Positions 311 through 11,226 of a stretch of DNA of 11,226 nucleotides are shown here, in pieces. Both the position numbers and the translations under genes were made by a program. Origin of the DNA: Acidobacteriaceae bacterium (GTDB lineage: Bacteria; Acidobacteriota; Terriglobia; Terriglobales; Acidobacteriaceae); assembly GCA_003162495.1 (NCBI GenBank), contig PMOF01000094.1, positions 1-11,226 of the forward strand, given 5' to 3'. Below the pieces are notes generated by a model. It was not told the DNA's origin and did no database searches. It saw only the letters and a program-made list of their open reading frames with translations. How positions within the stretch are numbered: position 1 is the first letter of the stretch; every line of letters starts with the position of its first letter.

Positions 311-404
311 CTAGCTGCTAGCTTTCAGCTTCTAGCTCATCGCACTGGCACCAAATTCATTGGCTCAGCAAGGACTGCTAGGAGCTAGAGGCTAGTAGCT
401 AGCC
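311..404. repeat. Heptamer repeat A1, bipartite inverted array between rpmD and rplO
   Basis: Left arm 311-338 is four 7-base units of the form YYAGCYN. Right arm 377-404 is four units of the form GCTAGNN. The spacer 339-376 is 38 bases and unrelated to the other spacers. The reverse complement of the right arm matches the left arm at 21 of 26 positions with the heptamers in register, so the transcript could form a long imperfect stem. The right arm runs over the rpmD stop codon (399-401), so the repeat itself supplies the TAG and one to two preceding bases. The function is unknown. Confidence 0.85.
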
Positions 405-605
405 TTCGAGTATCCGAACCAGGTGCGGTATGGTCTTCACCATGCCGCGAATCGATTCGTTATCCACGCGCTCGACAATCTGATTGAGCCGCGTAAAGCC
501 CAGCCCCTTGACCACCGCTTTATGCTTGAACGGCGTGGAGTTCTTGGAGCGGTAGTACTCAATGCGAATCATCCCAATCTTCTTGGTATCTTTGGTTTTC
601 GCCAT
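399..605 (-). CDS. rpmD: 50S ribosomal protein L30
   Basis: Small 50S protein of 68 residues, close to the usual 58-65. The core reads [20 protein letters not shown], then [20 protein letters not shown] and a C-terminal strand ending VRILEG; the [12 protein letters not shown] block is diagnostic. The ATG lies three bases after the rpsE stop, and its ribosome binding site GGAGGAG sits inside the last codons of rpsE, so translation is probably coupled to S5. L30 is not universal in bacteria and its presence here is a mild lineage marker. The TAG stop lies inside the downstream heptamer array, which suggests that the repeat grew up to, or into, the gene end. Confidence 0.96.
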
Positions 606-608
606 GGC

Positions 609-1118
609 CTACATCTCCTCCACGGTCTTGCCGCGCATGGTGGCGACAGCCGCCCGGTCGCGCAACTGCACCAGCGCATCGAACGTCGCCTTGACGACGT
701 TGTGCGGATTGGGCGAGCCCAGGCTCTTGGTGAGCACATTCTGCACACCGGCCGAGGTCATTACCGCGCGCACCGCGCCGCCGGCGATCACTCCAGTGCC
801 CTCGGGGGCCGGCTTGAGCAGCACCTGGCCGGAGCCAAAGCGCCCCAGCACCTGGTGTGGAATTGTGGTTTCGGTCAGGTTCACCCGAACCAGATTTTTC
901 TTGGCCGACTCGATTCCCTTGCGAATCGCCTGGGGAACCTCCTTGGCCTTGCCGGAACCGTGGCCCACCACTCCGGCAGCGGCGTCACCCACCACCACCA
1001 GCGCGGCAAACGACATGTTCTTGCCGCCCTTCACCACTTTGGTCACACGATTGATGGCCACCACCTGATCCTTCAGGTTGTACTGGTTGGCATCGAGTTT
1101 CTTTTTCAGAATCGTCAT
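609..1118 (-). CDS. rpsE: 30S ribosomal protein S5
   Basis: 30S protein S5 (169 residues) at the decoding side, involved in accuracy and mRNA entry. The N-terminal double-stranded-RNA-binding-like domain is seen in [20 protein letters not shown] followed by LVVVGD and [13 protein letters not shown]; the C-terminal domain has [18 protein letters not shown] and the end [17 protein letters not shown]. In the loop after VVVGD the family usually has Gly-rich GNGHVGYG; here it is AAAGVVGHG, a small departure that may be lineage-specific. The ATG at 1118 has only a purine-rich GAGAG stretch upstream. It precedes rpmD by three bases and is separated from rplR by heptamer array A2. Confidence 0.97.
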
Positions 1119-1143
1119 TGCTCTCTCGTCTCTTCTTGAGCCG

Positions 1144-1244
1144 CTAGCCTCTAGCTCTTAGCTTCTAGCTGATCTCGTGGTTGCCACGTTTGTCCAGTTA
1201 CCTCGATAAGCTAGCAGCTAGAAGCTGGCGGCTAGTAGCTGCCA
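1144..1244. repeat. Heptamer repeat A2, bipartite inverted array between rplR and rpsE
   Basis: Left arm 1144-1171 is exactly four heptamers, all with AGC at positions 3-5. Right arm 1210-1244 is five heptamers, all beginning GCT. The spacer 1172-1209 is 38 bases, the same length as in A1 but with unrelated sequence. Reverse-complemented right arm and left arm agree at 21 of 26 positions. The right arm ends at the base next to the rplR stop codon (1245-1247). There is no open reading frame of note and no poly-T tract, so it does not look like an ordinary intrinsic terminator. Confidence 0.87.
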
Positions 1245-1595
1245 TTAGAACTCCAACCCTGCTTCGCGGGCCGCATCGGCCAGCGCCTTGATGCGCCCGT
1301 GATAAAGGTAGCCGCCGCGATCGAAGACCACCTTCTTGATGCCCTGTTTCACGGCCAGCTCGGCAACGGCCTTGCCGATCTCTTTGGCCGCGGCCACATT
1401 GCCGCCGGTCTTCAACTTAATGGAAGAGGCCGAAACCAGCGTCTCGCCCTTCTGGTCGTCGATCACCTGCGCGTAAATGTGGTTCAGCGAGCGGTAAACG
1501 TTCAGCCGCGGCCGCACCTCGGTGCCCGTCATCTTGCGACGGATGCGGTCGTGAATGCGCTGGCGGATTGCGTTCCTCTTGGTCTGCGTAATCAT
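1245..1595 (-). CDS. rplR: 50S ribosomal protein L18
   Basis: 5S rRNA-binding 50S protein, 116 residues, the normal length. Recognised by the basic N-terminus ([20 protein letters not shown]), the strand [17 protein letters not shown], and the C-terminal block [19 protein letters not shown] followed by [11 protein letters not shown], which is the L18 signature. With L5 (rplE, also in this window) it forms the 5S RNP of the central protuberance. The start at 1595 gives the canonical N-terminus. The flanking gaps are unusually long: array B1 lies upstream toward rplF and array A2 directly touches the TAA stop. Confidence 0.97.
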
Positions 1596-1650
1596 GGTCT
1601 CTCGTTCCTATCAGCGGAGCCGCCCTGCGTCCCCGTTCGGTTGTTTTTTA

Positions 1651-1744
1651 GGGATTCGGGACTGGGGACTAAGGGACTAAGGAGAAGATGAATCTGCGAA
1701 TCTCCGCGACGAACTAGTCCCTGTTCCCTTAGTCCCTGGTCCCT
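1651..1744. repeat. Heptamer repeat B1, bipartite inverted array between rplF and rplR
   Basis: Left arm 1651-1679 is made of GGGATTC, GGGACTG and GGGACTA-type units. Right arm 1716-1744 is made of AGTCCCT, GTTCCCT and GGTCCCT-type units, which are the reverse complement type. Each arm contains one extra base (1672 and 1730) that shifts the 7-base phase once. The spacer of about 36 bases (1680-1715) is unrelated to the others. The array ends a few bases before the rplF stop codon at 1752. It is the same design as family A with a different heptamer. Confidence 0.83.
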
Positions 1745-1751
1745 GCCTTTC

Positions 1752-2291
1752 TTACTTCGCGCCCGTCTTGCCGGCCTTCTTCTTCAGCTTCTCGTCTGAG
1801 TAACGCACACCTTTGTTCTTGTAAGGATCGGGCTTGCGCAGCGAGCGCATGTCAGCCGCCACCTGGCCCACCTTTTGCCGGTCGATGCCGGAAACAGTCA
1901 AGTGGGTCTGCTTGGGATCGACAGCCACCTCAATGCCCGAAGGTAGCGGAACCTCGATCTGGTGCGAGTAGCCCAGCGTGAAAACGACCGTTCCCTTGCC
2001 CTTCAATTCGGCGCGGTAACCGATGCCCACAATGTCCAGCTCGCGCTTCCAACCTGTGGTGACGCCGTGAACGGCGTTGAACACCAACGCCCGGGTCAGC
2101 CCATGCACCGCAGCGTATTTGTCGGCCGAGCGATTCACGTGCAGTTCCCCGCCCACGGTTGCGAGAGAGATGCCCTCGGCGATCAGCGCCGAAACTTTCC
2201 CCTTGGGCCCCTCGACCAGAACGGTATTGCCCTCGACCCTATACTTCACGCCCGCGGGCAGCGGGATCGGCTTCTTTCCAATGCGCGACAT
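1752..2291 (-). CDS. rplF: 50S ribosomal protein L6
   Basis: 50S protein L6 (179 residues, usual length) located near the factor-binding site and the sarcin-ricin loop. The start [15 protein letters not shown] is the canonical N-terminus. Two alpha/beta L6 domains can be followed: residues about 1-82 and 83-179. The second carries [16 protein letters not shown] and the near-universal C-terminal motif [16 protein letters not shown] with a Lys-rich tail ending GKTGAK. An AAGGA ribosome binding site precedes the ATG by about nine bases. The upstream neighbour is rpsH across a 154-base gap with short palindromes; the downstream neighbour is rplR across array B1. Confidence 0.97.
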
Positions 2292-2405
2292 GAATTCAAT
2301 CCTTCTTCTGGCTTGCGAGTCCCGCCAAAGTTACTCTGGAGTTCCACTGTAGCCTGCCGGAGCAGCGCCCCAGCCAAACCAATCGCTTAATAACCGACGA
2401 GGCAC

Positions 2406-2445
2406 GTCCGGACACGCCGAAGGCGATTGCCTGGACGGCCAGTCC
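2406..2445. other. Cluster of short palindromes after the rpsH stop codon
   Basis: In the 154-base gap between rplF and rpsH, three short hairpin-forming palindromes lie directly after the rpsH stop (read on the minus strand): GGAC/GTCC at 2433-2445 with a 5-base loop, CGCC/GGCG with a 3-base loop at 2415-2425, and the perfect palindrome GTCCGGAC at 2406-2413. There is no T-run after them in the direction of transcription, so an intrinsic terminator is not supported. The rest of the gap (2292-2405) shows nothing recognisable apart from the rplF ribosome binding site. Confidence 0.5.
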
Positions 2446-2841
2446 TTACCACACTTCGCAGAGCAGCTCGCCGCCCACGCCTTCGCGGCGCGCCTGACGG
2501 CCGGTCATCACGCCCTTGGGCGTCGTCATAATTGAAATGCCTAGGCCGCCCTGAACGCGCTTGATCTCGTCGCGGCCGATGTATACACGGCAGCCGGGAC
2601 GCGAGATGCGCGCCAGATCGCGGATGGCCGCTTCTGCGCCGCCATACTTCAGATACACGCGCAGAACCTGCTTGCCTTCCTCTTCCTGTGTCTTGTAGTT
2701 CGAGATATAGCCCTCCTCTTTGAGGATGCGGGCAATCTCGGTCTTCAGCTTCGAAGCCGGAACATCCAGCTTCTGATGACGCGCCCGGATTGCGTTCCGG
2801 ATCCGCGCCAGAAAATCGGCTACTGGGTCAGTCAGACTCAT
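2446..2841 (-). CDS. rpsH: 30S ribosomal protein S8
   Basis: 30S protein S8 (131 residues, normal length), a primary binder of the central domain of 16S rRNA and, in E. coli, the translational repressor of the spc operon. The N-terminus MSLTDPVADFLARIRNAIRA and the C-terminal block TTPKGVMTGRQARREGVGGE followed by LLCEVW are family signatures. An AAGGAG ribosome binding site precedes the ATG at 2841. In E. coli S8 binds an operator at the start of rplE; I could not identify an equivalent by eye. Array C1 lies between rpsN and this gene. Confidence 0.97.
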   Translation of the reverse strand: MSLTDPVADFLARIRNAIRARHQKLDVPASKLKTEIARILKEEGYISNYKTQEEEGKQVLRVYLKYGGAEAAIRDLARISRPGCRVYIGRDEIKRVQGGLGISIMTTPKGVMTGRQARREGVGGELLCEVW

Positions 2842-2918
2842 TCCTTCTCCTTCATTCCCCGTTCGCTCCCTGTTTTCCTTGCTCCGGATCCAGGGAGAAC
2901 CAGCGGGAATGCATACTA

Positions 2919-3030
2919 CAGTGATCAGTGGTCAGTGATTAGTGGTCAGCAGCGAACCGTTTGGTCCTCACCGATGCGGCCAGTTCAGGCATGAATCAAC
3001 TGACCACTGTTCACTATCCACTAGCCACTG
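2919..3030. repeat. Heptamer repeat C1, bipartite inverted array between rpsN and rpsH
   Basis: Left arm 2919-2946 is four heptamers (CAGTGAT, CAGTGGT and TAGTGGT forms), all with AGTG at positions 2-5. Right arm 2999-3026 is four heptamers beginning ACT and ending in C, plus a partial ACTG to 3030. The spacer 2947-2998 is 52 bases and unique. The reverse complement of the right arm matches the left arm at 24 of 31 positions, and the mismatches fall almost only on the variable heptamer positions. The right arm ends six bases from the rpsN stop at 3036. Confidence 0.86.
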
Positions 3031-3035
3031 TTTTG

Positions 3036-3221
3036 CTACCAGCTCGACTTGACGACGCCGGGAATCTCACCCTTGAGCGCCAGCCCCCGGAAACACAAGC
3101 GGCAAACGCCAAACTTGCGCAAAAATCCTCGCGGCCGTCCGCAGAGCTGGCACCGGTTGTGCTTGCGGCAGCTGAACTTCGGCTTCCGCGCGTCTTTCAC
3201 CCTTTTTGCAGTGGTTGCCAT
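3036..3221 (-). CDS. rpsN: 30S ribosomal protein S14, zinc-binding (type Z)
   Basis: Short 61-residue S14 of the 30S head. The zinc ligands are visible as C24-x2-C27 ([10 protein letters not shown]) and C40-x2-C43 ([12 protein letters not shown]), followed by the conserved end [13 protein letters not shown]. Length and four cysteines place it in the zinc-containing class (also called rpsZ), as opposed to the roughly 100-residue cysteine-free form. An additional cysteine at residue 18 lies outside the motif. A GAGG site is five bases upstream of the ATG, and only 16 bases separate it from rplE. Zinc-dependent S14 can be replaced under zinc starvation in some bacteria; no second copy is in this window. 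Confidence 0.97.
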
Positions 3222-3237
3222 AAATCCTCAAATCCCC

Positions 3238-3786
3238 TTACGCGCCCTGGCGGAACGGCATGCCGAAATGCGCCAGCAACGCCCTCGCCTGGTTGTCGTC
3301 CTTGGCCGTGGTCACGATGGTGATGTTCATGCCCTTCAGCTTCTCCACTTTGGAATAATCGATCTCAGGAAAAATCAACTGATCGCGCAGGCCAAGTGTG
3401 TAGTTGCCGCGTCCGTCGAAACTCTTTGTCGATACGCCCCGGAAGTCGCGCACTCGTGGCAGCGCCGTTGAAATCAGGCGGTCAAGAAACTCATACGCCT
3501 TCTCGTTGCGCAGCGTGACCATGGCCCCGATTGACATGCCCGCTCTCACCTTGAAGGCTGCAATCGATTTCTTGGCCTTGGTGGTCACCGGCTTCTGCCC
3601 GGCAATCAACGCCAGGTCGTTCACCAGCGGATCAAGCAGCTTGGTGTTGCCCGTGGCCTCGCCCAGACCCATATTGATCACGATCTTGTCCAGCTCCGGC
3701 ACCGCCATTGCATTGTCAAGACCCAGCTCCTTCTGCAGAGCCTTCTTGATCTCCTTGTGATACTTCTCTTTCAATCTTGCTGCCAT
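3238..3786 (-). CDS. rplE: 50S ribosomal protein L5
   Basis: 5S rRNA-binding protein of the central protuberance, 182 residues, the usual length. Diagnostic segments are [16 protein letters not shown] (residues 29-44), [19 protein letters not shown] (63-81), and [20 protein letters not shown] with the C-terminal [20 protein letters not shown]. It partners with L18 on 5S rRNA. The ATG at 3786 is preceded by an AUAGGAA-type site. The 126-base gap to rplX upstream contains palindromes, described separately; the downstream rpsN follows closely and is probably co-translated. Confidence 0.97.
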
Positions 3787-3855
3787 GTTCCTATGCTCTC
3801 TTTCTTCCGGCCCTCGGATTGGCTCGCATTTTCCGGCCGTTTACCGTTGCGGAAG

Positions 3856-3912
3856 GCGCTTGCCGCACGGGCGGAAGCGCTGCGCGCCTCATCCCAGCGG
3901 GCTCAAGTCCCG
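3856..3912. other. Paired hairpins after the rplX stop codon
   Basis: Between rplX and rplE (gap 3787-3912) two palindromes follow the rplX stop. The first is CGGG/CCCG around 3898-3912, directly next to the stop codon at 3913. The second is a stronger one at 3856-3880: GCGCTT pairs with AAGCGC, then after a one-base bulge CCGC pairs with GCGG around a 4-base ACGG loop, ten pairs in total. No T-run follows in the transcribed direction. It may act as an mRNA processing or stability element, or be a dispersed REP-like repeat; neither can be decided from the window. Confidence 0.55.
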
Positions 3913-4239
3913 TTACTTCTTAGTTGGCAAGGTCTGCCCGCATTTCTTGCAGACGCGCACCTTGTGGTCGCCTTCAACCTTGTATCCCACGCGCACCGGG
4001 CCGCAGTTGGCGCACACCAGCATCACGTTCGAGACATCGATGGGCGATTCCTGCTCTGCGATGCCGCCCTTGGTGCGCTGTCCCTGCTTGCTCGAAACCG
4101 TCTTCTTGACCACCCGCACGTGCTCCACAAGCACCGTGCCCTTGTCCGGAAACACGCGCAGCACGCGGCCCGTTTTGCCCCGGTCCGAGCCCGTGAGCAC
4201 CTTGACCGTATCGTTGCGATGAATATTCAAACTCGGCAT
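3913..4239 (-). CDS. rplX: 50S ribosomal protein L24 with C-terminal zinc ribbon
   Basis: Assembly-initiating 50S protein L24, 108 residues. The KOW domain is at about residues 7-42 (HRNDTVKVLTGSDRGKTGRV, then LRVFPDKGTVLVEHV). The family motif SPIDVSNVMLVC follows. The C-terminus carries two CxxC pairs, C76-x2-C79 and C97-x2-C100, predicting a zinc ribbon that many but not all bacterial L24 proteins have. The ATG at 4239 is chosen over an in-frame start 28 codons upstream, because that stretch reads through heptamer array C2 and lacks L24 similarity, while GGAGAG sits just before the chosen ATG. Confidence 0.96.
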   Translation of the reverse strand: MPSLNIHRNDTVKVLTGSDRGKTGRVLRVFPDKGTVLVEHVRVVKKTVSSKQGQRTKGGIAEQESPIDVSNVMLVCANCGPVRVGYKVEGDHKVRVCKKCGQTLPTKK

Positions 4240-4253
4240 CTTCTCTCCAAAAA

Positions 4254-4403
4254 CAGTGGTTAGTGTTGAGTGATTAGTGGCCAGATTTTCAACTGGTACA
4301 GGCAACACAGCTGCACTGACCAATTACTTCTTTCAGGCCACTAAGACTGATCACAGACCATTGCCGTTCCTAATCACTAACCACTAATCACTGACCACTG
4401 CCG
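4254..4403. repeat. Heptamer repeat C2, bipartite inverted array between rplN and rplX
   Basis: Left arm 4254-4281 is four heptamers, each with AGTG at positions 2-5. Right arm 4369-4403 is five heptamers of ACTAATC / ACTGACC type. A more decayed extension of the right arm can be traced inward to about 4346 (ACTGATC, ACAGACC). Spacer length is about 87 bases, or 64 if the decayed units are counted as arm. The reverse complement of the right arm matches the left arm at 24 of 31 positions. The right arm ends on the base next to the rplN stop codon (4404-4406). Confidence 0.85.
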
Positions 4404-4775
4404 TTAAACCACTTCCGGGGCCAGCGAAACAATTTTCAAAAACTTCTTCTCGCGCAGTTCGCGGGCCACCGGCCCGAAGACGCGCGTTCCCACCGGCTCG
4501 CGTGCATCGTCGATTACGACCGCCGCGTTCTCATCAAACCGGATATAGGTGCCGTCGCGCCTACGGTATTCCTTGCGGGTGCGGACGATCACCGCCTTCA
4601 CCACTTTGCCCTTCTTGACCGTGCCGTCCGGCGAGGCTTCCTTGACCGCCGCGGTCACTACGTCGCCGAGGCCGGCCTTCTTGCCCAGTCCGCCGCCCAG
4701 CGGCAGAATCACTTGCAGCTTGCGCGCGCCGGAGTTGTCGGCCACCGCGAGCATGGTTCTCATTTGCACAGCCAT
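4404..4775 (-). CDS. rplN: 50S ribosomal protein L14
   Basis: 50S protein L14 (123 residues, typical 122) that binds helix 95 of 23S rRNA, contributes to an intersubunit bridge and is the docking site of the silencing factor RsfS. Signatures are [20 protein letters not shown] near the N-terminus, the strand [20 protein letters not shown], and [11 protein letters not shown] then [14 protein letters not shown]. The ATG at 4775 has AAGGAG about nine bases upstream. rpsQ ends 26 bases upstream, so this is one of the few ordinary-sized gaps; the downstream gap is filled by array C2. Confidence 0.97.
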
Positions 4776-4801
4776 GGGTTCTTCTCCTTAACTCGCTCCG
4801 G

Positions 4802-5140
4802 TTAGCTTGCGGCCTTGATTTCTGTTTTCGGTTCGGCGTCCTCGATCTGACCAAGGGCCGAGCGCCGCACAATCTCTTCGAGCGACCACCGCTTCAACTT
4901 GCTCAAGGGGCGCGTCTCCCGGATGCGCACCACGTCGCCCATGCGCGCCGAGCTCTGCTCGTCGTGGGCATAAAACTTCTTGGTCGAGCGCACGATTCGC
5001 TTGTACTTGGCATGAGCCTTGCGCATTTCGACTTCGACCACAATCGTCTTCTGCATCTTGGTCGAGACCACATTGCCGACCTTCTCATTGCGCCGCGCGC
5101 CCGTCCCCGGTGCGTGCACTGCCTCTGTAGTCGCCGCCAT
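4802..5140 (-). CDS. rpsQ: 30S ribosomal protein S17, with terminal extensions
   Basis: 16S rRNA-binding protein with an OB fold. The core [20 protein letters not shown], then [20 protein letters not shown] and [19 protein letters not shown], is a clear S17. The protein is 112 residues where 80-90 is usual; the surplus is about 20 residues at the N-terminus (Ala/Thr/Gly-rich) and 15-20 at the C-terminus. The ATG at 5140 directly abuts the TAA of rpmC, which supports this start and translational coupling. A later internal start would remove the N-terminal extension but has no equally good context. Confidence 0.95.
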
Positions 5141-5389
5141 TTATCGGGCTCCTTTGCTGGTTGTTTCCGCAACCTTGCTATCCGCGGCCGCGCCGCGAAT
5201 GCTCAACGCGCGCTCTTTGGCCACGGTCTTGATCTGAGCAATCTCCTTGCGCAACTGGCGGAGCTTCTTCACTCCGTCGTTCTGCCCCAGGGAAACCTGA
5301 AAGCGAAGCCGGAAAAGCTGCTCGGAGGTTGTCTTCTCCTGGTGCTGCAATTCTTCGTCGCTCAAATTGCGAATCTTCTCGAGTTCCAT
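5141..5389 (-). CDS. rpmC: 50S ribosomal protein L29
   Basis: Two-helix 50S protein near the peptide exit tunnel, a contact point for trigger factor and SRP. Residues 1-62 carry the family pattern: ELEKIRNLSDEELQ, EQLFRLRFQVSLGQ and KKLRQLRKEIAQIKTVAKER. About 20 Ala/Thr/Lys residues follow, making it 82 residues where 60-70 is usual. The ATG at 5389 is preferred over an in-frame start at 5503: the extra 38 codons read through an intergenic hairpin and show no L29 similarity. The stop codon directly adjoins the rpsQ start. Confidence 0.95.
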   Translation of the reverse strand: MELEKIRNLSDEELQHQEKTTSEQLFRLRFQVSLGQNDGVKKLRQLRKEIAQIKTVAKERALSIRGAAADSKVAETTSKGAR

Positions 5390-5459
5390 CTCTGTTTCTC
5401 TCTCCGCCGCCTGCACGCCCAATTCGGCGCAGCGCGTCAACCTTCTAAAAACTGGGTGC

Positions 5460-5494
5460 CCCATCCTTTCCGCGCTGTTTGCGGAAAGGGTGGG
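5460..5494. repeat. Strong REP-like palindrome between rplP and rpmC
   Basis: Stem 5460-5473 (CCCATCCTTTCCGC) faces 5481-5494 (GCGGAAAGGGTGGG) around a 7-base loop. All 14 positions pair on the plus strand if one T·G wobble is allowed; on the rpl mRNA (minus strand) that position is an A·C mismatch. It lies eight bases from the rplP stop codon and no T-run follows, so it is more like an extragenic palindrome or an mRNA stability element than a terminator. The remainder of the 113-base gap (5390-5459) is featureless. Confidence 0.75.
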
Positions 5495-5502
5495 AGACCA
5501 CA

Positions 5503-5940
5503 CTACTTCGCCGCGGCGACTACTTTTTCGGCGCCCGGCCGCATCACGAACTTGGTCCTCAGCGGCAGCTTGTTTGAAGCCAGCCGCATGGCTTCCTGCG
5601 CAATCTCCGGAGCCACCCCTTCCATTTCGAAAAGGATCTTGCCCGGCCGCACCACCGCGACCCAGTGGTCCAGCGCGCCCTTGCCCGAGCCCATGCGGAC
5701 TTCGGCCGGCTTTTTGGTGATCGGTTTATCCGGGAACAGGCGCAGCCAGATCTTGCCGCCGCGCTTGATGAAGCGGGTCATGGCGATGCGGCTGGCCTCG
5801 ATCTGCCGGTCGGTGATGTAACCGCACTCCAGCACCTTCAACCCGTATTCGCCGAACGACAGCGAGGAGCCGCGCCACGCCTTGCCGCGGCGTTTGCCCT
5901 TCTGCTGCTTGCGAAACTTCACCTTCTTTGGCATCAACAT
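5503..5940 (-). CDS. rplP: 50S ribosomal protein L16
   Basis: 50S protein L16, important for A-site tRNA positioning and late assembly. Protein of 145 residues. The N-terminus [20 protein letters not shown] is canonical. The block [20 protein letters not shown] (residues 78-97) contains the arginine (R82) that corresponds to the one hydroxylated in E. coli L16, but the family MGKGKG is MGSGKG here. The end [15 protein letters not shown] is slightly longer than usual. The ATG at 5940 is chosen because in-frame codons further upstream run through heptamer array B2; a GAGG site is about 11 bases upstream. Confidence 0.96.
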
Positions 5941-5962
5941 AGCGAAAAACCTCGAAAAGACA

Positions 5963-6100
5963 GGGAATAGGGAATAGGGATTAGGGACTAGCTTCATCCC
6001 GTCGCGATTCGCTTCCCGGTCTGCGTAGTGCAAACCTCAACAACCAACAATCAATCTACCGGCAATTGGAACCCCTATTCCCTGGTCCCTATTCCCTGCT
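5963..6100. repeat. Heptamer repeat B2, bipartite inverted array between rpsC and rplP
   Basis: Left arm 5963-5990 is four exact 7-base units (GGGAATA, GGGATTA and GGGACTA forms). Right arm 6073-6100 is four units of CCCTATT / CCCTGGT / CCCTGCT form. Reverse complement of the right arm matches the left arm region at 23 of 26 positions, the best pairing of any array here. The spacer 5991-6072 is 82 bases, with no gene and no other recognisable element. The right arm ends one base from the rpsC stop (6102-6104). Confidence 0.88.
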
Positions 6101-6101
6101 T

Positions 6102-6770
6102 CTAGAACACCGACGTGCCGACGGGCGGATTCTGACGCCGCTTCTGCTCATAGATGTCGCCGCGATAGATCCACGTCTTCACGCCGATCACGCCATACGT
6201 TGTATGCGCCTCGGTAAACCCGTAATCGATATCGGCGCGCAGCGTGTGCAGCGGCAAACGCCCCTGCAGGTACCACTCCGAGCGGGCGATTTCATTGCCG
6301 TTCAGCCGGCCCGATACACGCACCTTGATGCCCTTGCAGCCGAAGCGCAGCGCCGAGTCCACACTTTTTCTCATCGCGCGGCGGAAGCTGACGCGCTTTT
6401 CCAGTTGCAGCGCGATGTTCTCTGAAACCAGTTGCGCGTCCAGCTCCGGCTTGTTCACTTCGATGATGTCGATGAACACGTCGCGGTTGGTGCGCTTGCC
6501 GAGCTCGGTCTTGAGCTTCTCGATCTCCGCGCCCTTGCGGCCGATCACGATGCCAGGCCGGGCGGTGCGGATCAAAAAGCGCAGCTTATTGCCGGGTCGC
6601 TCGATCTCGACCGAGCTCACGCCTGCGGCCTTCAGCTTCTCGCGCAACTCAGCCTTCAGCTTCACGTCCTCGACCAGGAGCTTCGAATAGTCGCGCTCAG
6701 AGAACCAGCGCGAACGCCACGGCTTGTTCACTCCCAGCCGAAATCCGTAAGGATGGACTTTCTGTCCCAT
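6102..6770 (-). CDS. rpsC: 30S ribosomal protein S3
   Basis: 30S protein at the mRNA entry channel, 222 residues. The N-terminus [18 protein letters not shown] is canonical. A type II KH domain is marked by [16 protein letters not shown] (GRKG at 77-80). FRRAMRK at 129-135 corresponds to the basic patch linked to mRNA helicase activity in E. coli S3. The C-terminal domain has [18 protein letters not shown] and [28 protein letters not shown] site precedes the ATG, and rplV ends 19 bases upstream. No unusual residues are seen. Confidence 0.98.
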
Positions 6771-6789
6771 ATGCTTCCTCTCAAAACCT

Positions 6790-7410
6790 CTAGGCCTTCT
6801 TGCCGGCCTTTTTCCCAGTTGTCTTTGCCTTCGGCGCCTCGGCCGTCTCAGCTGTCTTGGCCGTTGCCTTCGGCGCCCCAGCCTTCTTGGCCGCCGCCTT
6901 TGGCTTTTCGGTCTTGGTCCCGCTCTTGGTCTTGGTGGCCTTGGACGCTGGTTTGCTCGCCTTGGCCCCAGCCTTCGGTGCTGCCTTGGGCGCCAACGCG
7001 GGCGCGACCTTCGGCTCCTCGATCTTTGTCACAAGCCCGTTGGCTGCCTGGCGCTCGGCAACGGAAAGAATAATGTGCGTCAGCCTGCGCTGATAGCGGA
7101 AAGCCCGCCCCATCGGCGCGGGGCGAATGCGCTTCATGCGCGGTCCGTCATTGGCCAGGGCCAGCTTGACGTAGAGATTGTCCACGTCCAGATCCAACCC
7201 CCGCTCGCCGGACAGATACTTTGCGTTGTCCACCGCCGACGTCAGCAGCTTGTGAATCACCGGAGCGATCCGCTTCTTGGTGAAGGCCGCCGTCTCCAGC
7301 GCCTCCTGCACTCCCCGGCCTTTGATCAGATCCAACACCAGCCGCGCCTTTTGCGGCGACACGCGCTGAAACCTGGCCTCGGCCCGATATTCGTTTGTCA
7401 CGACTGCCAT
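6790..7410 (-). CDS. rplV: 50S ribosomal protein L22 with long histone H1-like C-terminal tail
   Basis: 50S protein L22, whose beta-hairpin lines the peptide exit tunnel. The core is residues 1 to about 120: [15 protein letters not shown] (18-32), [13 protein letters not shown], and the hairpin [19 protein letters not shown] (91-109) followed by LTHIILSV. From about residue 121 to 206 the protein is a low-complexity Ala/Lys/Pro/Thr tail with repeated KPA, KAA and KTEKPKA-type steps, ending GKKAGKKA. Typical L22 is 110-120 residues, so the tail adds about 85. Its frame is open and continuous with the core, and its stop lies 19 bases before rpsC. It resembles eukaryotic H1 tails and some bacterial basic tails in composition; its role is unknown. 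Confidence 0.96.
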
Positions 7411-7453
7411 TGTGTCTTCCTCAAATCTCCGCCAGTGGCTGGTTCTGCCCAGC

Positions 7454-7484
7454 AGTCCCTGCTCCCTGGTCCCATATAGTCCCT
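7454..7484. repeat. Heptamer repeat B3, single arm between rpsS and rplV
   Basis: Units AGTCCCT, GCTCCCT and GGTCCCA are contiguous at 7454-7474. After a three-base slip, another AGTCCCT follows at 7478-7484, four bases from the rpsS stop (7489-7491). No facing G-rich arm is found in the rest of the gap (7411-7453). It is the same orientation and position as the stop-proximal arm of B1 and B2, which suggests a reduced or incomplete array. Confidence 0.75.
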
Positions 7485-7488
7485 GTCT

Positions 7489-7788
7489 CTACCGCGGCTT
7501 GGCCGTGACCTCAGCAGCGGCCTTGCTGCTGCCCCCGGTATGCCCTTTGAACGTGCGCGTGGGCGCAAACTCGCCCAGCTTGTGTCCCACCATGTTCTCG
7601 GTCACATACACCGGAACAAATTTCTTGCCGTTGTGGACGGCGATCGTGTGCCCCACAAACTCGGGAAAAATCGTCGAACGCCGCGACCAGGTCTTCACGA
7701 CCTTCTTGTCGTTGGCCTGGTTCAACACCTCGATCTTCACCGTGAGGTGCGCATCCACGAACGGGCCCTTCTTTGTCGAACGTGCCAT
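7489..7788 (-). CDS. rpsS: 30S ribosomal protein S19
   Basis: 30S head protein contacting S13 and the A-site finger, 99 residues (usual 90-95). Hallmarks are [15 protein letters not shown] at the N-terminus, [20 protein letters not shown] and [20 protein letters not shown], then PTRTFKGH. A short Ala/Ser/Lys tail of about 12 residues follows. The best ribosome binding site is AGGAG at 7798-7802, nine bases from the ATG, and it lies inside heptamer array A3. Downstream toward rplV is the single-arm array B3. Confidence 0.97.
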
Positions 7789-7793
7789 AAAAC

Positions 7794-7918
7794 TCAGCTC
7801 CTAGCTTCCAGCCTTTAGCCTCTAGCTTTGAAACGTTCGCTATCGACCGGCCATTGCCTTAAATCTCTTTTCACAACCGTTTAGCTAGAAGCTGGAAGCT
7901 AGAAGCTAAAAGCTGCAT
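7794..7918. repeat. Heptamer repeat A3, bipartite inverted array between rplB and rpsS
   Basis: Left arm 7794-7828 is five heptamers, all with AGC at positions 3-5 and C/T exchanges elsewhere. Right arm 7884-7918 is five heptamers beginning GCT (GCTAGAA, GCTGGAA and GCTAAAA forms). The spacer 7829-7883 is 55 bases and unique. The reverse complement of the right arm matches the left arm at 25 of 32 positions. The right arm ends two bases from the rplB stop, and the left arm begins five bases from the rpsS start, so the whole gap is essentially this element. Confidence 0.88.
7798..7802 (-). promoter_or_regulatory. Ribosome binding site of rpsS inside a heptamer repeat
   Basis: AGGAG on the minus strand, nine bases before the rpsS ATG. 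It is formed at the junction of two A-type heptamers of array A3 (7794-7800 and 7801-7807). It therefore lies in the arm that could pair with the distal arm at 7884-7918, which would hide the site in a folded transcript. That this affects translation is inference. Confidence 0.6.
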
Positions 7919-7920
7919 TT

Positions 7921-8745
<825 letters not shown>

Positions 8746-8804
8746 CGTCTTTGTCCTGGAGTGCTGACGCTTGAAAATCTCTCGCGCCGCTCTCCCCGTT
8801 TCTC

Positions 8805-8831
8805 CGGAACTCAATCCACTTCCGAGTTCCG
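8805..8831. other. Perfect 8-bp inverted repeat upstream of rplB
   Basis: CGGAACTC at 8805-8812 faces GAGTTCCG at 8824-8831 around an 11-base loop, in the 140-base gap between rplW and rplB. There is no T-run after it. It lies about 60 bases before the rplB start and 28 bases from array B4. It could be a hairpin or a protein-binding dyad; there is no further evidence. Confidence 0.5.
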
Positions 8832-8858
8832 ATAGTCCTTCAAGGCCGGGTCTTTACT

Positions 8859-8879
8859 AGTCCCTAGTCTCTATTCCCT
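8859..8879. repeat. Heptamer repeat B4, single arm between rplW and rplB
   Basis: Three contiguous units AGTCCCT, AGTCTCT and ATTCCCT, ending six bases from the rplW stop (8886-8888). No facing G-rich arm is seen in the gap. Position and orientation equal the stop-proximal arms of the complete B arrays. Confidence 0.72.
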
Positions 8880-8885
8880 GCACTT

Positions 8886-9179
8886 CTAGAGGTTGCTCAC
8901 GTATTCCGGCAGCTTTTCGCCCGCTTTCAGCCGGACGTAAGCCTTCTTCCAGTCCGGACGGAAGCCCGCAAATTTGCCGCGGCGGCGTTCCTTGCCGACC
9001 ACATTGGCCGTGCGCACCGCGATCACCTTCACCTTGAAGAGCGTCTCGACTGCCTGCTTGACTTCAGTTTTAGTGGCCTCGGGAGCGACGTCGAACACCA
9101 GCGTCCCCTCGGTCTCTTTCACGCTCAATCCCTTTTCAGTAATCAGCGGGCGGCGAATCACGGTATAAAGTGTCGGCAT
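8886..9179 (-). CDS. rplW: 50S ribosomal protein L23
   Basis: 50S protein at the tunnel exit and the docking site for trigger factor and SRP; 97 residues, normal. The N-terminal YTVIRRPLITEKG is the family signature, followed by the strand LVFDVAPEATKTEVKQAVET and the loop TANVVGKERRRGKFAGFRPD leading to KKAYVRLKAGEKL. Its ATG overlaps the rplD stop by one base (TAATG), which fixes the start and implies coupled translation with L4. Confidence 0.97.
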   Translation of the reverse strand: MPTLYTVIRRPLITEKGLSVKETEGTLVFDVAPEATKTEVKQAVETLFKVKVIAVRTANVVGKERRRGKFAGFRPDWKKAYVRLKAGEKLPEYVSNL

Positions 9180-9856
9180 TACGCTGCCTCCGTTTCCGCG
9201 GCATGCTTGCGCTTTGACGCGGCTTTCTCAAACATCTCGATGAGTTGCTCGATGGCGGCCGTCGAGAAAATGGCCCGTTCATAGCGCAGCAGATCGTAAG
9301 GGTGCACTTCGTTGTTGAGCACCAGTTCCACGCCCGCCAGGTTGCGCGCGCCCAGCAGCAGCGATTGGGTCAGCGTCTTGTTGTTCTCAACCAAAAGAGC
9401 TGTGCGCGTAACGTCCAGCTTGTCCAGCGCCGCGCGGTAGAGTTTGGTCTTGCCGTCTTTGAGCTCCAGCGTGTCGACTACGGTGAGCTTGCCGTCGGCC
9501 AGCTTCGAAGCCAGCGCTGAGCGTAAGGCCCCGAGCAGCTTCTTGCGCGGAAACGCGTACTCGTAGCTGCGCGGCTGCGGCCCGTGCACCGTGTAGCCGT
9601 GGCGCCAAAGCGGCGAACGCACCGAGCCGATTCGCGCCCGGCCAGTGCCCTTCTGCTTCCACAGCTTCTTGCCGGAACCAGCAACCTGGGTGCGGCTCTT
9701 GGTGGCGGCCGTGCCCTGGCGCAGCGAAGCGCGGTAGTGCTTCACCGCCTCCCACAGCAGAGCCTCGTTCACCTGGTCGGGTCCAAAGAGCGCATCAGAC
9801 AACTCCAGCGTCCCAACCTTGTCTCCGTTCATGTTCAATACATCCACGTTTGCCAT
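9179..9856 (-). CDS. rplD: 50S ribosomal protein L4
   Basis: 50S protein with a tunnel-lining loop; in E. coli it also represses the S10 operon. The protein is 225 residues. The N-terminus MANVDVLNMNGDKVGTLEL is typical, and the extended loop carries the hallmark GSGKKLWKQKGTGRARIGSV followed by RSPLWRHGYTVHGPQPRSY. The C-terminal alpha/beta part ends in an Ala/Lys/Glu-rich tail. The ATG at 9856 is preceded by GGAAGAAGAAG; an in-frame start 25 codons upstream would add sequence translated from intergenic palindromes and is rejected. Whether L4 autoregulation exists here is not visible. Confidence 0.96.
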   Translation of the reverse strand: MANVDVLNMNGDKVGTLELSDALFGPDQVNEALLWEAVKHYRASLRQGTAATKSRTQVAGSGKKLWKQKGTGRARIGSVRSPLWRHGYTVHGPQPRSYEYAFPRKKLLGALRSALASKLADGKLTVVDTLELKDGKTKLYRAALDKLDVTRTALLVENNKTLTQSLLLGARNLAGVELVLNNEVHPYDLLRYERAIFSTAAIEQLIEMFEKAASKRKHAAETEAA

Positions 9857-9904
9857 CTTCTTCTTCTTCCGCCCCGAGCATCGCTCCGGGCTCTCAAACT
9901 CTCT

Positions 9905-9939
9905 TGCGCCGCAAGGCGCGATTGGCCGCACCGCAGGTG
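9905..9939. other. Tandem hairpins after the rplC stop codon
   Basis: Read on the minus strand, the rplC TAG is followed at once by CACC/GGTG with a 3-base loop (about 9928-9940). Ten or so bases later comes GCGCC/GGCGC around a 4-base loop (9906-9919). The same two-hairpin layout with nearly the same second hairpin follows the rpsJ stop (10762-10795), so this is probably one dispersed element present twice. The rest of the 83-base gap holds only a short GAGC/GCTC palindrome near 9877. Confidence 0.65.
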
Positions 9940-10665
9940 CTATTTACGCTTGCCGCCGGCCTTCTTCGATGCCTTCAACGGATCAACAGTGCCGGAACCG
10001 GCAAAGCCACGGCGCTCGCGCGGCGGAGTCTTGGCCTTCGAAATCAGCACATACCCTTCGCGCGATCCGGGAACCGCGCCTTCAACCATGATCAGATTCT
10101 CTTCAATGTCGATGCCGCGAATGCGCAGATTGCGAACCGTCACCTGCTCCGCGCCCATGTGCCCCGGCATCCGCTGCCCCGGAAACACGCGCGACGGAAA
10201 ACTGGAGGCGCCGATCGAGCCCTGCACCTGAAACATATGTCCGTGCGATTTGGGTCCGCCACCAAAACCGTGACGGCGCACGACGCCTGCAAAGCCGCGG
10301 CCTTTGGAGGTGCCAATCACATCGACAAACCGCGTCTCGGAGAAGATGTCAACCAACACACGGTCGCCCGCCTTGGTCGCGACCACTCCGTCCGCATCCA
10401 CTTCAAGCGCGACTTCGCGAATTACTTTGACCGGCGGCGCCTCGGTTTTGGCGAAGTGCCCAGCCTGCGGTTTGGTCACATTCTTGTTTTTGACAAACTC
10501 GACCAGGCCGATCTGCGCAGCCTCATAGCCGTCGCGCGCCAGCGTCTTCAACTGCGTAATCACGCACGGGCCGGCCTGCAGCACCGTAATCGGGTGCACG
10601 TCGCCCTTTTCATCGAAGACCTGCGTCATGCCGATCTTTTTTCCCACAATTCCTGTAACTGCCAT
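9940..10665 (-). CDS. rplC: 50S ribosomal protein L3
   Basis: Early-assembly 50S protein reaching toward the peptidyl transferase centre, 241 residues. The N-terminus TGIVGKKIGMTQVFDEKG is canonical, and the conserved central part has SKGRGFAGVVRRHGFGGGPK (120-139), SHGHMFQVQGSIGASSFPSR (140-159) and PGQRMPGHMGAEQVTVRNL. The glutamine methylated by PrmB in E. coli (context GQNQTPG) has no counterpart: the loop reads GASSFPS, as in many non-proteobacterial L3 proteins. The C-terminus is a 25-30 residue Lys/Arg-rich extension ending KKAGGKRK. The GAGGAAG site precedes the ATG at 10665. Confidence 0.97.
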   Translation of the reverse strand: MAVTGIVGKKIGMTQVFDEKGDVHPITVLQAGPCVITQLKTLARDGYEAAQIGLVEFVKNKNVTKPQAGHFAKTEAPPVKVIREVALEVDADGVVATKAGDRVLVDIFSETRFVDVIGTSKGRGFAGVVRRHGFGGGPKSHGHMFQVQGSIGASSFPSRVFPGQRMPGHMGAEQVTVRNLRIRGIDIEENLIMVEGAVPGSREGYVLISKAKTPPRERRGFAGSGTVDPLKASKKAGGKRK

Positions 10666-10683
10666 GTCTTCCTCACCTCATCA

Positions 10684-10704
10684 TGCGATGTTGAACTCAT
10701 CGCA
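10684..10704. other. Perfect 7-bp stem-loop upstream of rplC
   Basis: TGCGATG at 10684-10690 faces CATCGCA at 10698-10704 around a 7-base loop, in the 130-base gap between rpsJ and rplC, about 20 bases before the rplC start. It is symmetric enough to fold on either strand. In the mRNA it would lie just 5' of the rplC ribosome binding site (10666-10676) without covering it. Confidence 0.5.
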
Positions 10705-10711
10705 CTGCCGG

Positions 10712-10731
10712 GGTCCTTCCGGACCTTTTTT
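10712..10731 (+). terminator. Possible intrinsic terminator on the plus strand (antisense to the operon)
   Basis: GGTCC (10712-10716) and GGACC (10721-10725) form a short GC-rich stem with a 4-base loop, directly followed by six Ts (10726-10731). The polarity of the T-run fits transcription on the plus strand, against the ribosomal genes. The stem is only five pairs and no plus-strand gene is present, so this may be chance or part of an intergenic repeat. Confidence 0.3.
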
Positions 10732-10761
10732 ACTGCTTCGCGCGGCTTCCACGAAGGTTGT

Positions 10762-10795
10762 GCGCCGTAAGGCGCGTCTGCCCCACCACGGGTGG
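10762..10795. other. Tandem hairpins after the rpsJ stop codon
   Basis: On the minus strand the rpsJ TAG is followed by CCACC/GGTGG with a 3-base loop (10783-10795), and then by GCGCC/GGCGC around a 4-base loop at 10762-10775. The layout and second hairpin match the element after the rplC stop (9905-9939), although the genes themselves are unrelated. No T-run follows, so ordinary termination is unlikely. Confidence 0.65.
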
Positions 10796-11113
10796 CTATT
10801 TTTCAAACGCCTTGATCTCGACATCGACGCCCGCCGGCAGATCGAGCTTCATCAGCGCGTCCACCGTTTGCTGGGTCGGCTCGAGAATATCGATCAGCCG
10901 TTTGTGGGTGCGAATCTCGAAAGCCTCGCGGGACTTCTTGTCCACGTGGGGCGAACGCAGCACGCAATATTTGTTCTTGATCGTCGGCAAGGGAATGGGG
11001 CCTGCCACGGTTGCTCCGGTGCGCTTGGCCGTCTCCACAATTTCGCCGGTCGAGGTGTCCAGCACGCGATAATCGTATGCCTTCAACCGTATGCGAATTC
11101 TCTGTCCTACCAT
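10796..11113 (-). CDS. rpsJ: 30S ribosomal protein S10 (also NusE)
   Basis: First gene of the S10 operon, 105 residues, normal length. It is a 30S head protein that also acts as NusE, the NusB partner that links transcription and translation. Recognised by [18 protein letters not shown] at the N-terminus, [20 protein letters not shown] (residues 36-55), and [20 protein letters not shown] with the end [19 protein letters not shown] lies about ten bases before the ATG at 11113. In many bacteria tuf is directly upstream, which fits the fragment at the window edge. Confidence 0.98.
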
Positions 11114-11143
11114 GCTTGTTCGTCCTTCTGGTGATCAGGGCCG

Positions 11144-11177
11144 GAGATCAGACATCAGTTTGTCCGCGGCTGATCTC
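11144..11177. other. 8-bp inverted repeat in the rpsJ leader
   Basis: GAGATCAG at 11144-11151 faces CTGATCTC at 11170-11177 around an 18-base loop, 30 bases upstream of the rpsJ start and next to array B5. It could form a leader hairpin in the transcript. I see no -35/-10 pair that I would trust in this 96-base gap. Confidence 0.45.
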
Positions 11178-11178
11178 T

Positions 11179-11208
11179 AGTCCCTGAGTCCCTACGTCCC
11201 TAGTCCCT
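11179..11208. repeat. Heptamer repeat B5, single arm between tuf (probable) and rpsJ
   Basis: Three AGTCCCT units and one CGTCCCT unit within 30 bases, with two of the steps being eight bases, so the phase is looser than in the other arrays. It ends one base before the stop codon of the upstream gene (11210-11212). No facing G-rich arm is found before rpsJ. Confidence 0.72.
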
Positions 11209-11209
11209 G

Positions 11210-11226
11210 TTATTTCGTAATCTCCG
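11210..11226 (-). CDS. tuf: Last codons of an upstream gene, probably elongation factor Tu
   Basis: Only 17 bases are inside the window. In one minus-strand frame they read Glu-Ile-Thr-Lys-stop, preceded by a partial codon ending CG that is compatible with Thr. TEITK at the very end fits the VVTEI-type C-terminus of bacterial EF-Tu, and tuf commonly precedes rpsJ. The position of the stop next to heptamer array B5, as seen for the other genes here, also supports a gene end at this point. The identification rests mainly on gene order and could be wrong. Confidence 0.4.

Follow-up and report, generated by a model that had tools for sequence, protein, structure and literature searches.

Why are the gaps between the genes of an essential operon filled with degenerate repeats of seven bases, in several sequences side by side? 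The question is raised by a stretch of 11,226 nucleotides from an Acidobacteriaceae bacterium (contig PMOF01000094.1; hereafter the window), which contains the S10-spc operon on the minus strand from rpsJ to the start of rplO. The abundance of seven-base repeats in bacteria is an old open question, and polymerase slippage is the usual answer. It was found that the arrays of the window form arms of usually 4-5 units of the type YAG-xx-NN, that their polarity is fixed, that they are dispersed and favour short co-directional gaps, and that presence, absence and family turn over among congeners. The reading that we prefer, with a probability of about 0.5, is that the arrays are the two arms of dispersed, non-autonomous inverted-repeat elements resembling ERIC, REP, RUP or miniature inverted-repeat transposable elements (MITEs), whose intercistronic stem-loop would shape the polycistronic mRNA.

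The contig of the window (C153) belongs to a 2.82-Mb genome (G000) that is 71% complete. Gene names in the window follow the usual operon order and a reading of the proteins, without family search, and those outside the window were read from protein starts rather than database hits. The window was compared with 80 further loci, giving 81 S10-spc loci; the counts of spacer similarity, chain position and chain order omit L031, L032, L033 and L035, which come from the same bins as L199, L201, L207 and L211, respectively.

Seven-base periodicity in the operon gaps

When the 15 window gaps of at least 60 nt were pooled, identity at lag 7 reached 0.357, compared with 0.260 in dinucleotide shuffles (z = 9.6), demonstrating a 7-base phase stronger than that of shuffled sequence of the same composition. 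No other lag between 2 and 29 exceeded z = 2 except lag 14 (z 5.6) and lag 21 (z 4.1), and lag 2 was low (z -3.5). Tested one by one against 300 shuffles each, ten of the 15 gaps had a best lag-7 segment with p < 0.05, the weakest being 11114-11214 (p = 0.043), which confirmed the degenerate heptamer arrays that an earlier note on this DNA had placed in ten gaps; five gaps were without array. The shared unit length of seven claimed in that note holds for the window as a whole, where lag 7 was dominant, but the period is not strictly seven, because lags 8 and 15 outscored lag 7 in gaps 1596-1751 and 11114-11214. An inverted-repeat search joined the two arms inside individual window gaps. The inverted bipartite layout was seen in seven gaps, but three others contained the stop-side arm alone (Table 1).

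The array detectors used for the wider survey were strict: the lag-7 detector applied to the 81 loci flagged five of the 14 window gaps examined, and the chain detector overlooked the rplF-rplR arms owing to their 8-nt spacing. No Rfam family was matched in the window gaps, and the one sub-threshold match lay inside rpsC.

One unit grammar with fixed polarity

Read on the mRNA strand, the arm on the side of the stop codon has the form (YAG-xx-NN)4-5, and the arm that precedes the following start codon consists of the reverse complement (CTR units). The variable xx is CT in family A, GG in family B and TG in family C, and relatives add TT and others. The three families had been described as unrelated, with sequences that "differ completely"; this was rejected, because all of them are YAG-xx-NN units in mRNA orientation, and some spacers are homologous across gaps. 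In 715 units from arrays classified as YAG or CTR, YAG was the most constant part (A 0.97 at position 2, G 1.00 at position 3), the figures being inflated because the register was set by YAG. A total of 309 arrays was classed, 98 as YAG, 121 as CTR and 90 without a clear call; inspection of 60 of these 90 showed that part of them were family A arrays ambiguous between YAG and CTR, and part were other heptamers (GTCGTTG, AATTTGC and CGTGAAC types).

The polarity was evident from the array midpoints, which lay in the 5' half of the gap for 96 of 98 YAG arrays and in the 3' half for 99 of 121 CTR arrays. Of 232 YAG chains found with the chain detector, 228 began within the first third of their gap. 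Where both strands bore a chain of at least four units (170 gaps), the YAG chain came first in 163, the chains overlapped in 6, and the order was reversed in 1. Chains of at least four units on either strand were detected in 312 of 1055 gaps (reversed-motif control chains in 47 of the same gaps), and an opposite arm of at least three units was present in 230 of the 312.

Unusual arrays were also encountered. Heptamers of the non-YAG types (CGTGAAC, GTCGTTG, AATTTGC) fill the same gaps elsewhere, in rpsC-rplP of L035 and in several gaps of L078, L080, L083 and L088. Between genes read as rpmG and tuf (L219:6278-6394, genome G009), an arm of the YAGTG type was present in three direct copies ∼42 bp apart, and a 173-bp compound array in Occallatibacter (L227:5208-5380) combined families B, A and others in a single gap.

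Predicted pairing and folding of the arms

Arm length was mostly 4-5 units in the 101 two-armed elements examined, whose gaps spanned 82-221 nt. The stop-side arm began 0-27 nt past the stop codon (mode 3), and 1-72 nt separated the end of the start-side arm from the start. This distance leaves many start-side arms too far upstream of the Shine-Dalgarno sequence for its general sequestration, which was therefore rejected, though it may occur at rplB-rpsS.

Arms were swapped among 75 of 109 two-arm elements, taken from genomes with at least three of them. The own arm was the best partner in 32 of 75 cases versus 15 expected, and in gaps without array the corresponding figures were 65 of 391 versus 58 expected. 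Gaps containing N or outside the stated lengths were skipped both here and in the spacer comparisons below. Own arms agreed in family in 70 of 101 elements, and swapped arms in 152 of 354 pairs. The mean folding z was -3.67 for array gaps, -2.14 for no-array gaps of the same genomes and -1.35 for gaps of array-free genomes (100 gaps per group, from 185, 187 and 210, respectively). The RNAalifold consensus of 18 family-A elements consisted of 5-bp helices separated by 2x2 internal loops, and 8 of its 22 pairs showed a double change in some sequence. From this fold, one heptamer would correspond to one 5-bp helix plus one 2-nt loop. A U-rich tract past the start-side arm was found in 38 of 142 elements versus 9 of 412 control windows, and A was enriched before the other arm; the 142 elements, out of 168, were those whose start-side arm lay at least 8 nt from the start.

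Distribution within and among genomes

In the 81 loci, 274 lag-7 arrays were detected in 91,390 gap bases and 0 in 633,447 coding bases. In the same gaps, lags 4-6 and 9-12 gave 0-2 arrays each, lag 8 gave 36, lag 13 gave 4, lag 15 gave 9, and lag 14, a multiple of seven, gave 197. At least one array gap was present in 45 of the 81 loci. The comparison of the orthologous operon in close relatives that had been proposed revealed both shared occurrence and turnover between congeners.

The genome of Occallatibacter savannae (G001), for which, as for the operon regions inspected below, genes were taken from a simple in-house gene caller, was surveyed over 798 kb at a stricter threshold, and 52 lag-7 arrays were non-coding and 2 coding. 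Among co-directional gaps, arrays were found in 23 of the 224 with a length of 40-300 nt and in 5 of the 60 longer ones; they were found in 2 of 99 divergent gaps, 2 of 62 convergent gaps and 13 of 17 S10-spc gaps. These five figures correspond to 1.04, 0.16, 0.06, 0.17 and 8.92 arrays per kb, respectively. Five of the 23 short co-directional cases were located at 13.7-18.4 kb of the S10-spc contig, just behind S10-spc and maybe in the same operon. Where a convergent or divergent gap did hold arrays, these ended at most 14 nt from the start or end of a gene.

A covariance model of family A (R1) was searched at E <= 0.01, with both strands counted, so that about two matches are obtained per place. 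There were 21 matches in G000, 60 in G001, 38 in G009, 55 in G062, 1 in Terriglobus roseus and 2 in Edaphobacter. Among the operon regions inspected, which were picked for having R1 matches, these clustered in operons read as rplK-nusG-secE-rpmG-tuf, rplA-rplJ-rplL-rpoB, atp, nuo and leu-ilv, among others. The YAG4 pattern gave 467+383 counts in Occallatibacter (reversed-pattern control 55+65) and 42+72 in G000 (18+15), compared with 1+10 in Terriglobus roseus (5+5) and 4+1 in Edaphobacter (5+8). These counts and the R1 matches supported the suggestion that a few families recur at many dispersed sites in the genome and its relatives. At E <= 1e-6 under strict filters, R1 matched 33 of 199 phylum-wide genomes from 17 of 119 genera, and one genome of the same genus was without match.

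Turnover among relatives and copying of elements

Congeners with alike flanks were found to carry an element of another family, no element or a stub. At rplB-rpsS, the gap was filled in 12 of 26 genomes and shorter than 45 nt in 13, so that filled and empty sites coexist among relatives. Family agreement between elements in the same gap of other genomes (341 of 1078 pairs) was the same as the rate of unrelated pairs (3975 of 12587), and within a genome it was 168 of 363; the set comprised 168 two-armed elements from 50 genomes, and the pairs are not independent.

Between spacers of different gaps, 41 of 9521 pairs attained a local score of 26, compared with 0 of 3556 shuffled pairs; at the same gap, 50 of 775 pairs did so. 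The word TTCGTGC occurred in 10 of 144 spacers, from six gaps, where 0.12 were expected. For 18 family-A elements from 8 gaps, chosen for their alike spacers, the alignment spanned both arms and spacer. Together these results indicated that at least part of the elements were copied from one another, arms and interior included. Within arms, identical neighbouring units were rarer than in permuted arms (0.062 vs 0.086, z -4.2) and units two apart were more alike (z +3.75), both z values being inflated by related elements. Association with the RAYT/REP (Y1) transposase was rejected by copy number.

Two sequences next to elements behaved differently from the elements. The stretch directly upstream of rplR, ACCGAACGGGG...CGGCTCCGCTGATAGG (1606-1644, rplF-rplR gap), and that directly upstream of rpsH, CATTCCCGC...GAACGGGGAATGAAGG (2842-2905, rpsN-rpsH gap), were kept among congeners, whereas the adjoining heptamer elements varied. 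From their conservation, both are candidate regulatory RNA or ribosomal-protein binding sites.

Features of the window

Table 1. Heptamer arms in the gaps of the S10-spc operon (window coordinates)
Feature	Position	Strand	Remarks
rpmD-rplO stop-side arm	377..401	-	YAGCTNN units; overlaps rpmD stop codon
rpmD-rplO start-side arm	311..337	-	reverse-complement units; R1 match 305-408
rplR-rpsE stop-side arm	1207..1241	-	YAGCTNN; R1 match 1138-1241, 72.9 bits
rplR-rpsE start-side arm	1142..1171	-	
rplF-rplR stop-side arm	1713..1745	-	YAGGGNN, partly 8-nt spacing
rplF-rplR start-side arm	1650..1684	-	
rpsN-rpsH stop-side arm	2998..3030	-	YAGTGNN
rpsN-rpsH start-side arm	2918..2949	-	
rplN-rplX stop-side arm	4368..4400	-	YAGTGNN
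rplN-rplX start-side arm	4254..4284	-	
rpsC-rplP stop-side arm	6070..6098	-	YAGGGNN
rpsC-rplP start-side arm	5961..5991	-	
rplB-rpsS stop-side arm	7883..7915	-	YAGCTNN; R1 match 7795-7915
rplB-rpsS start-side arm	7795..7826	-	AGGAG in last unit, likely Shine-Dalgarno of rpsS
rpsS-rplV gap, stop-side arm only	7454..7485	-	YAGGGNN
rplW-rplB gap, stop-side arm only	8857..8880	-	YAGGGNN
gap before rpsJ, stop-side arm only	11177..11209	-	YAGGGNN, 7-8 nt spacing; upstream gene outside window

Heptamer-free gaps of the window (9857-9939, 10666-10795 and 5455-5499) contained other short hairpins, of the GCGCCNYAAGGCGC type or as an inverted repeat GTGCCCCATCCTTTCCGC, which may be further repeats. The L22 protein has a long Ala/Lys-rich C-terminal extension (6790-7020). 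The bin of the window contains a second S10 locus (G000:C78:3739-4404) with its own heptamer elements and an S3 98% identical to that of the window, and judged from these sequences it is probably a mixture of two close species. Another S10 locus, L067, comes from a record titled Rhodanobacteraceae; its S3 is 88% identical to that of the window, suggesting that the record is probably a mislabelled Acidobacteriota bin.

Proposed origin and role of the elements

According to the preferred reading, the elements would be non-autonomous and mobile or copied, and the transcript would form a long stem in which helices of ∼5 bp alternate with 2x2 internal loops, the unit of seven representing one such helix plus one 2-nt internal loop. 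The stem-loop might protect or process the 3' end of the upstream cistron, or partly attenuate transcription, and retention in highly expressed operons would then be due to its shaping of the mRNA. A role in RNA is favoured by the co-directional bias, the position after stop codons, the fixed polarity, the strong folding and the better pairing of own than of swapped arms. The fast change between species, together with the mostly co-directional placement, indicates that the elements probably act on, or are tolerated in, a shared mRNA. By class they fit the heptamer repeats (simple sequence repeats and short tandemly repeated repetitive sequences, SSR/STRR), being tandem 7-nt units that are intergenic and dispersed, and in dispersion and presence/absence they also fit the small mobile elements; they were not classed as MITEs, because partial tests gave neither a transposase nor a duplication.

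Several observations weigh against this reading. The differences between arms showed no preference for G.U on the mRNA strand (G.U 153 vs C.A 155; 287 vs 266 in a larger set), a pattern expected without selection or with a strand-symmetric process at the DNA level only, and mRNA-strand selected pairing was accordingly rejected as a demonstrated mechanism. The covariation term of the 18-element consensus fold was small (-0.21 of -22.54), and the sixth unit base was near uniform in the 715 units (A.22, C.27, G.30, T.22). Only 167 of 250 CTR chains lay in the final third of their gap, and 82 of the 312 array gaps were one-armed, in balance between stop-side (39) and start-side (43). Terriglobus roseus and Edaphobacter are nearly element-free, which argues against a vital function. 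As to mobility, most spacer pairs from different gaps were dissimilar, spacers were oriented sense to transcription in 11 of 14 cases (p = 0.057), copies of the Y1 transposase, the only one searched, did not track the elements (2, 2 and 3 in element-rich vs 5 and 0 in element-poor genomes), and no target-site duplication was seen by eye in the comparison of filled and empty sites, for which no systematic test was made.

Part of these data could be accommodated by other explanations. Slippage-made simple repeats (long simple sequence repeats, LSSR, or STRR) would have seven as the favoured slip length, functionless tandem arms and an inverted partner produced by template switching. The units are indeed degenerate copies of each other, and in many bacteria heptamers are more frequent than any other long simple repeat; a polymerase-footprint cause has been proposed for this (Mrazek 2007, as cited in PMC4679880 and PMC4692102). 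Nevertheless, slippage is considered rather unlikely, given the depletion of identical neighbours and the greater likeness of units two apart (z inflated by kinship), the arm length of mostly 4-5 units, the fixed polarity, the few arrays in convergent and divergent gaps and the homology of some spacers across gaps. The earlier note had suggested a common generating process or a common structural requirement; the shared architecture under different sequences agrees with this, but generic repeat generation is insufficient in view of the depleted identical neighbours and the few convergent or divergent arrays. Purely selfish miniature inverted-repeat elements, which would insert preferentially into transcribed DNA by stop codons, be tolerated by the host and form a hairpin without benefit, would account for the patchy spread of R1 in the phylum, the finding that family follows genome more than gap, the absence of a G.U bias and the presence/absence polymorphism. 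This was judged unlikely against the concentration in S10-spc (8.9 per kb vs 1.04 in other short co-directional gaps), the failure to find a transposase in the Y1 search and the lack of a target-site duplication visible by eye.

Leaky intrinsic terminators or attenuators that tune the output of successive cistrons are suggested by the U-rich tracts past the start-side arm and by the enrichment of A before the other arm. The tract was missing in about three quarters of the elements, however, spacers of tens of nt imply slow hairpins, and a terminator scan of the window, limited to loops of 3-8 nt, yielded 14 hits versus 13.5 in shuffles, i.e. no excess; such a function is thus quite improbable. 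A protein that binds RNA or DNA and recognizes YAG at seven-base intervals, with the arrays as its binding sites, could explain why YAG is the most constant part of the unit, a constancy which the choice of register inflates. But heptamers of the non-YAG types occupy the same gaps in other genomes, for which reason a YAG-binding protein was rejected as the sole cause and binding-site arrays are regarded as very improbable.

The elements with an RNA stem-loop, as preferred here, suggest a structural meaning for the number seven. In this essential operon, several sequences that lie next to each other share one geometry, with fixed polarity, mostly co-directional gaps and fast turnover, so that the seven-base question becomes testable, as one between mRNA structure and mobile element, in the culturable Occallatibacter.

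Comparison with known repeats

Judged by titles and abstract starts, none of the open-access papers listed by the literature searches reports such repeats in Acidobacteria. Cyanobacterial STRRs are intergenic heptamers of several sequences, like the arrays described here. Among small dispersed elements, BIME/REP is the same kind of intergenic inverted-repeat element as ERIC, and ERIC, RUP, Correia/NEMIS and BIME/REP generally have one conserved sequence per family. In contrast, the arms here are modular heptads of several sequences, with no transposase or duplication known. A review (PMC2229807) describes ERIC/IRU, RUP and Correia/NEMIS as dispersed intergenic inverted-repeat elements of about 100-150 bp, and ERIC and NEMIS as reported to influence mRNA stability or processing.

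The GGGAATC heptamers of Xanthomonas are degenerate, intergenic, mostly of four units and mostly between co-directional genes (Rehm et al. 2015, PMC4692102). They lie on average 28 nt from the nearest gene on their 5' side, and the two Xanthomonas genomes have 70 and 75 inverted pairs of them; the GGGGA(C/T)T heptamers of Nostoc include few inverted pairs (PMC4692102). Family B is almost identical to these in sequence, whereas families A and C are without G runs. The repeats of PMC4692102 have one sequence per genome and are read there as G-quadruplex formers, unlike the several families per operon, one grammar and mainly two-armed layout found here. In the Nostoc tRNA-Leu intron, degenerate heptanucleotides of P6b pair as a hairpin, and their copy number differs from one relative to another (PMC3488679, a Nephroma study citing Costa et al. 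2002); the heptamer-armed hairpin is shared with the elements here, but P6b is a single locus inside an intron. The supposed lack of a named equivalent of the inverted layout is therefore contradicted by the Xanthomonas pairs and the Nostoc hairpin.

In Beggiatoaceae, some Cyanobacteria and Bacteroidetes, direct repeats of TAACTGA stand just before start codons, also within ribosomal protein operons (MacGregor 2015, PMC4679880). On the other strand TAACTGA is CAG-TT-AT, a YAG-xx-NN unit oriented like the start-side arm here; unlike the present elements, these repeats comprise 169 direct-repeat sets and a single indirect one, and are described as lacking a predicted RNA structure in their own right. 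The genome of Geobacter metallireducens contains elements of four or five heptanucleotides (PMC2700814). It is doubtful, though conceivable, that heptad-armed hairpins form one intercistronic class across phyla, a modular 5-bp helix plus 2-nt loop in highly expressed operons whose unit sequence would be free while geometry and polarity are kept. Such a class would unite these separately described heptamers with the Acidobacteriota families. TAACTGA (Beggiatoaceae, Cyanobacteria), GTGATTA (Helicobacter) and MTYCTGA (Geobacter) are rotations or complements of YAG-xx-NN, though GGGAATC (Xanthomonas) and GGGACCG (Geobacter) are not, with the units taken as printed in PMC4679880, PMC4692102 and PMC2700814.

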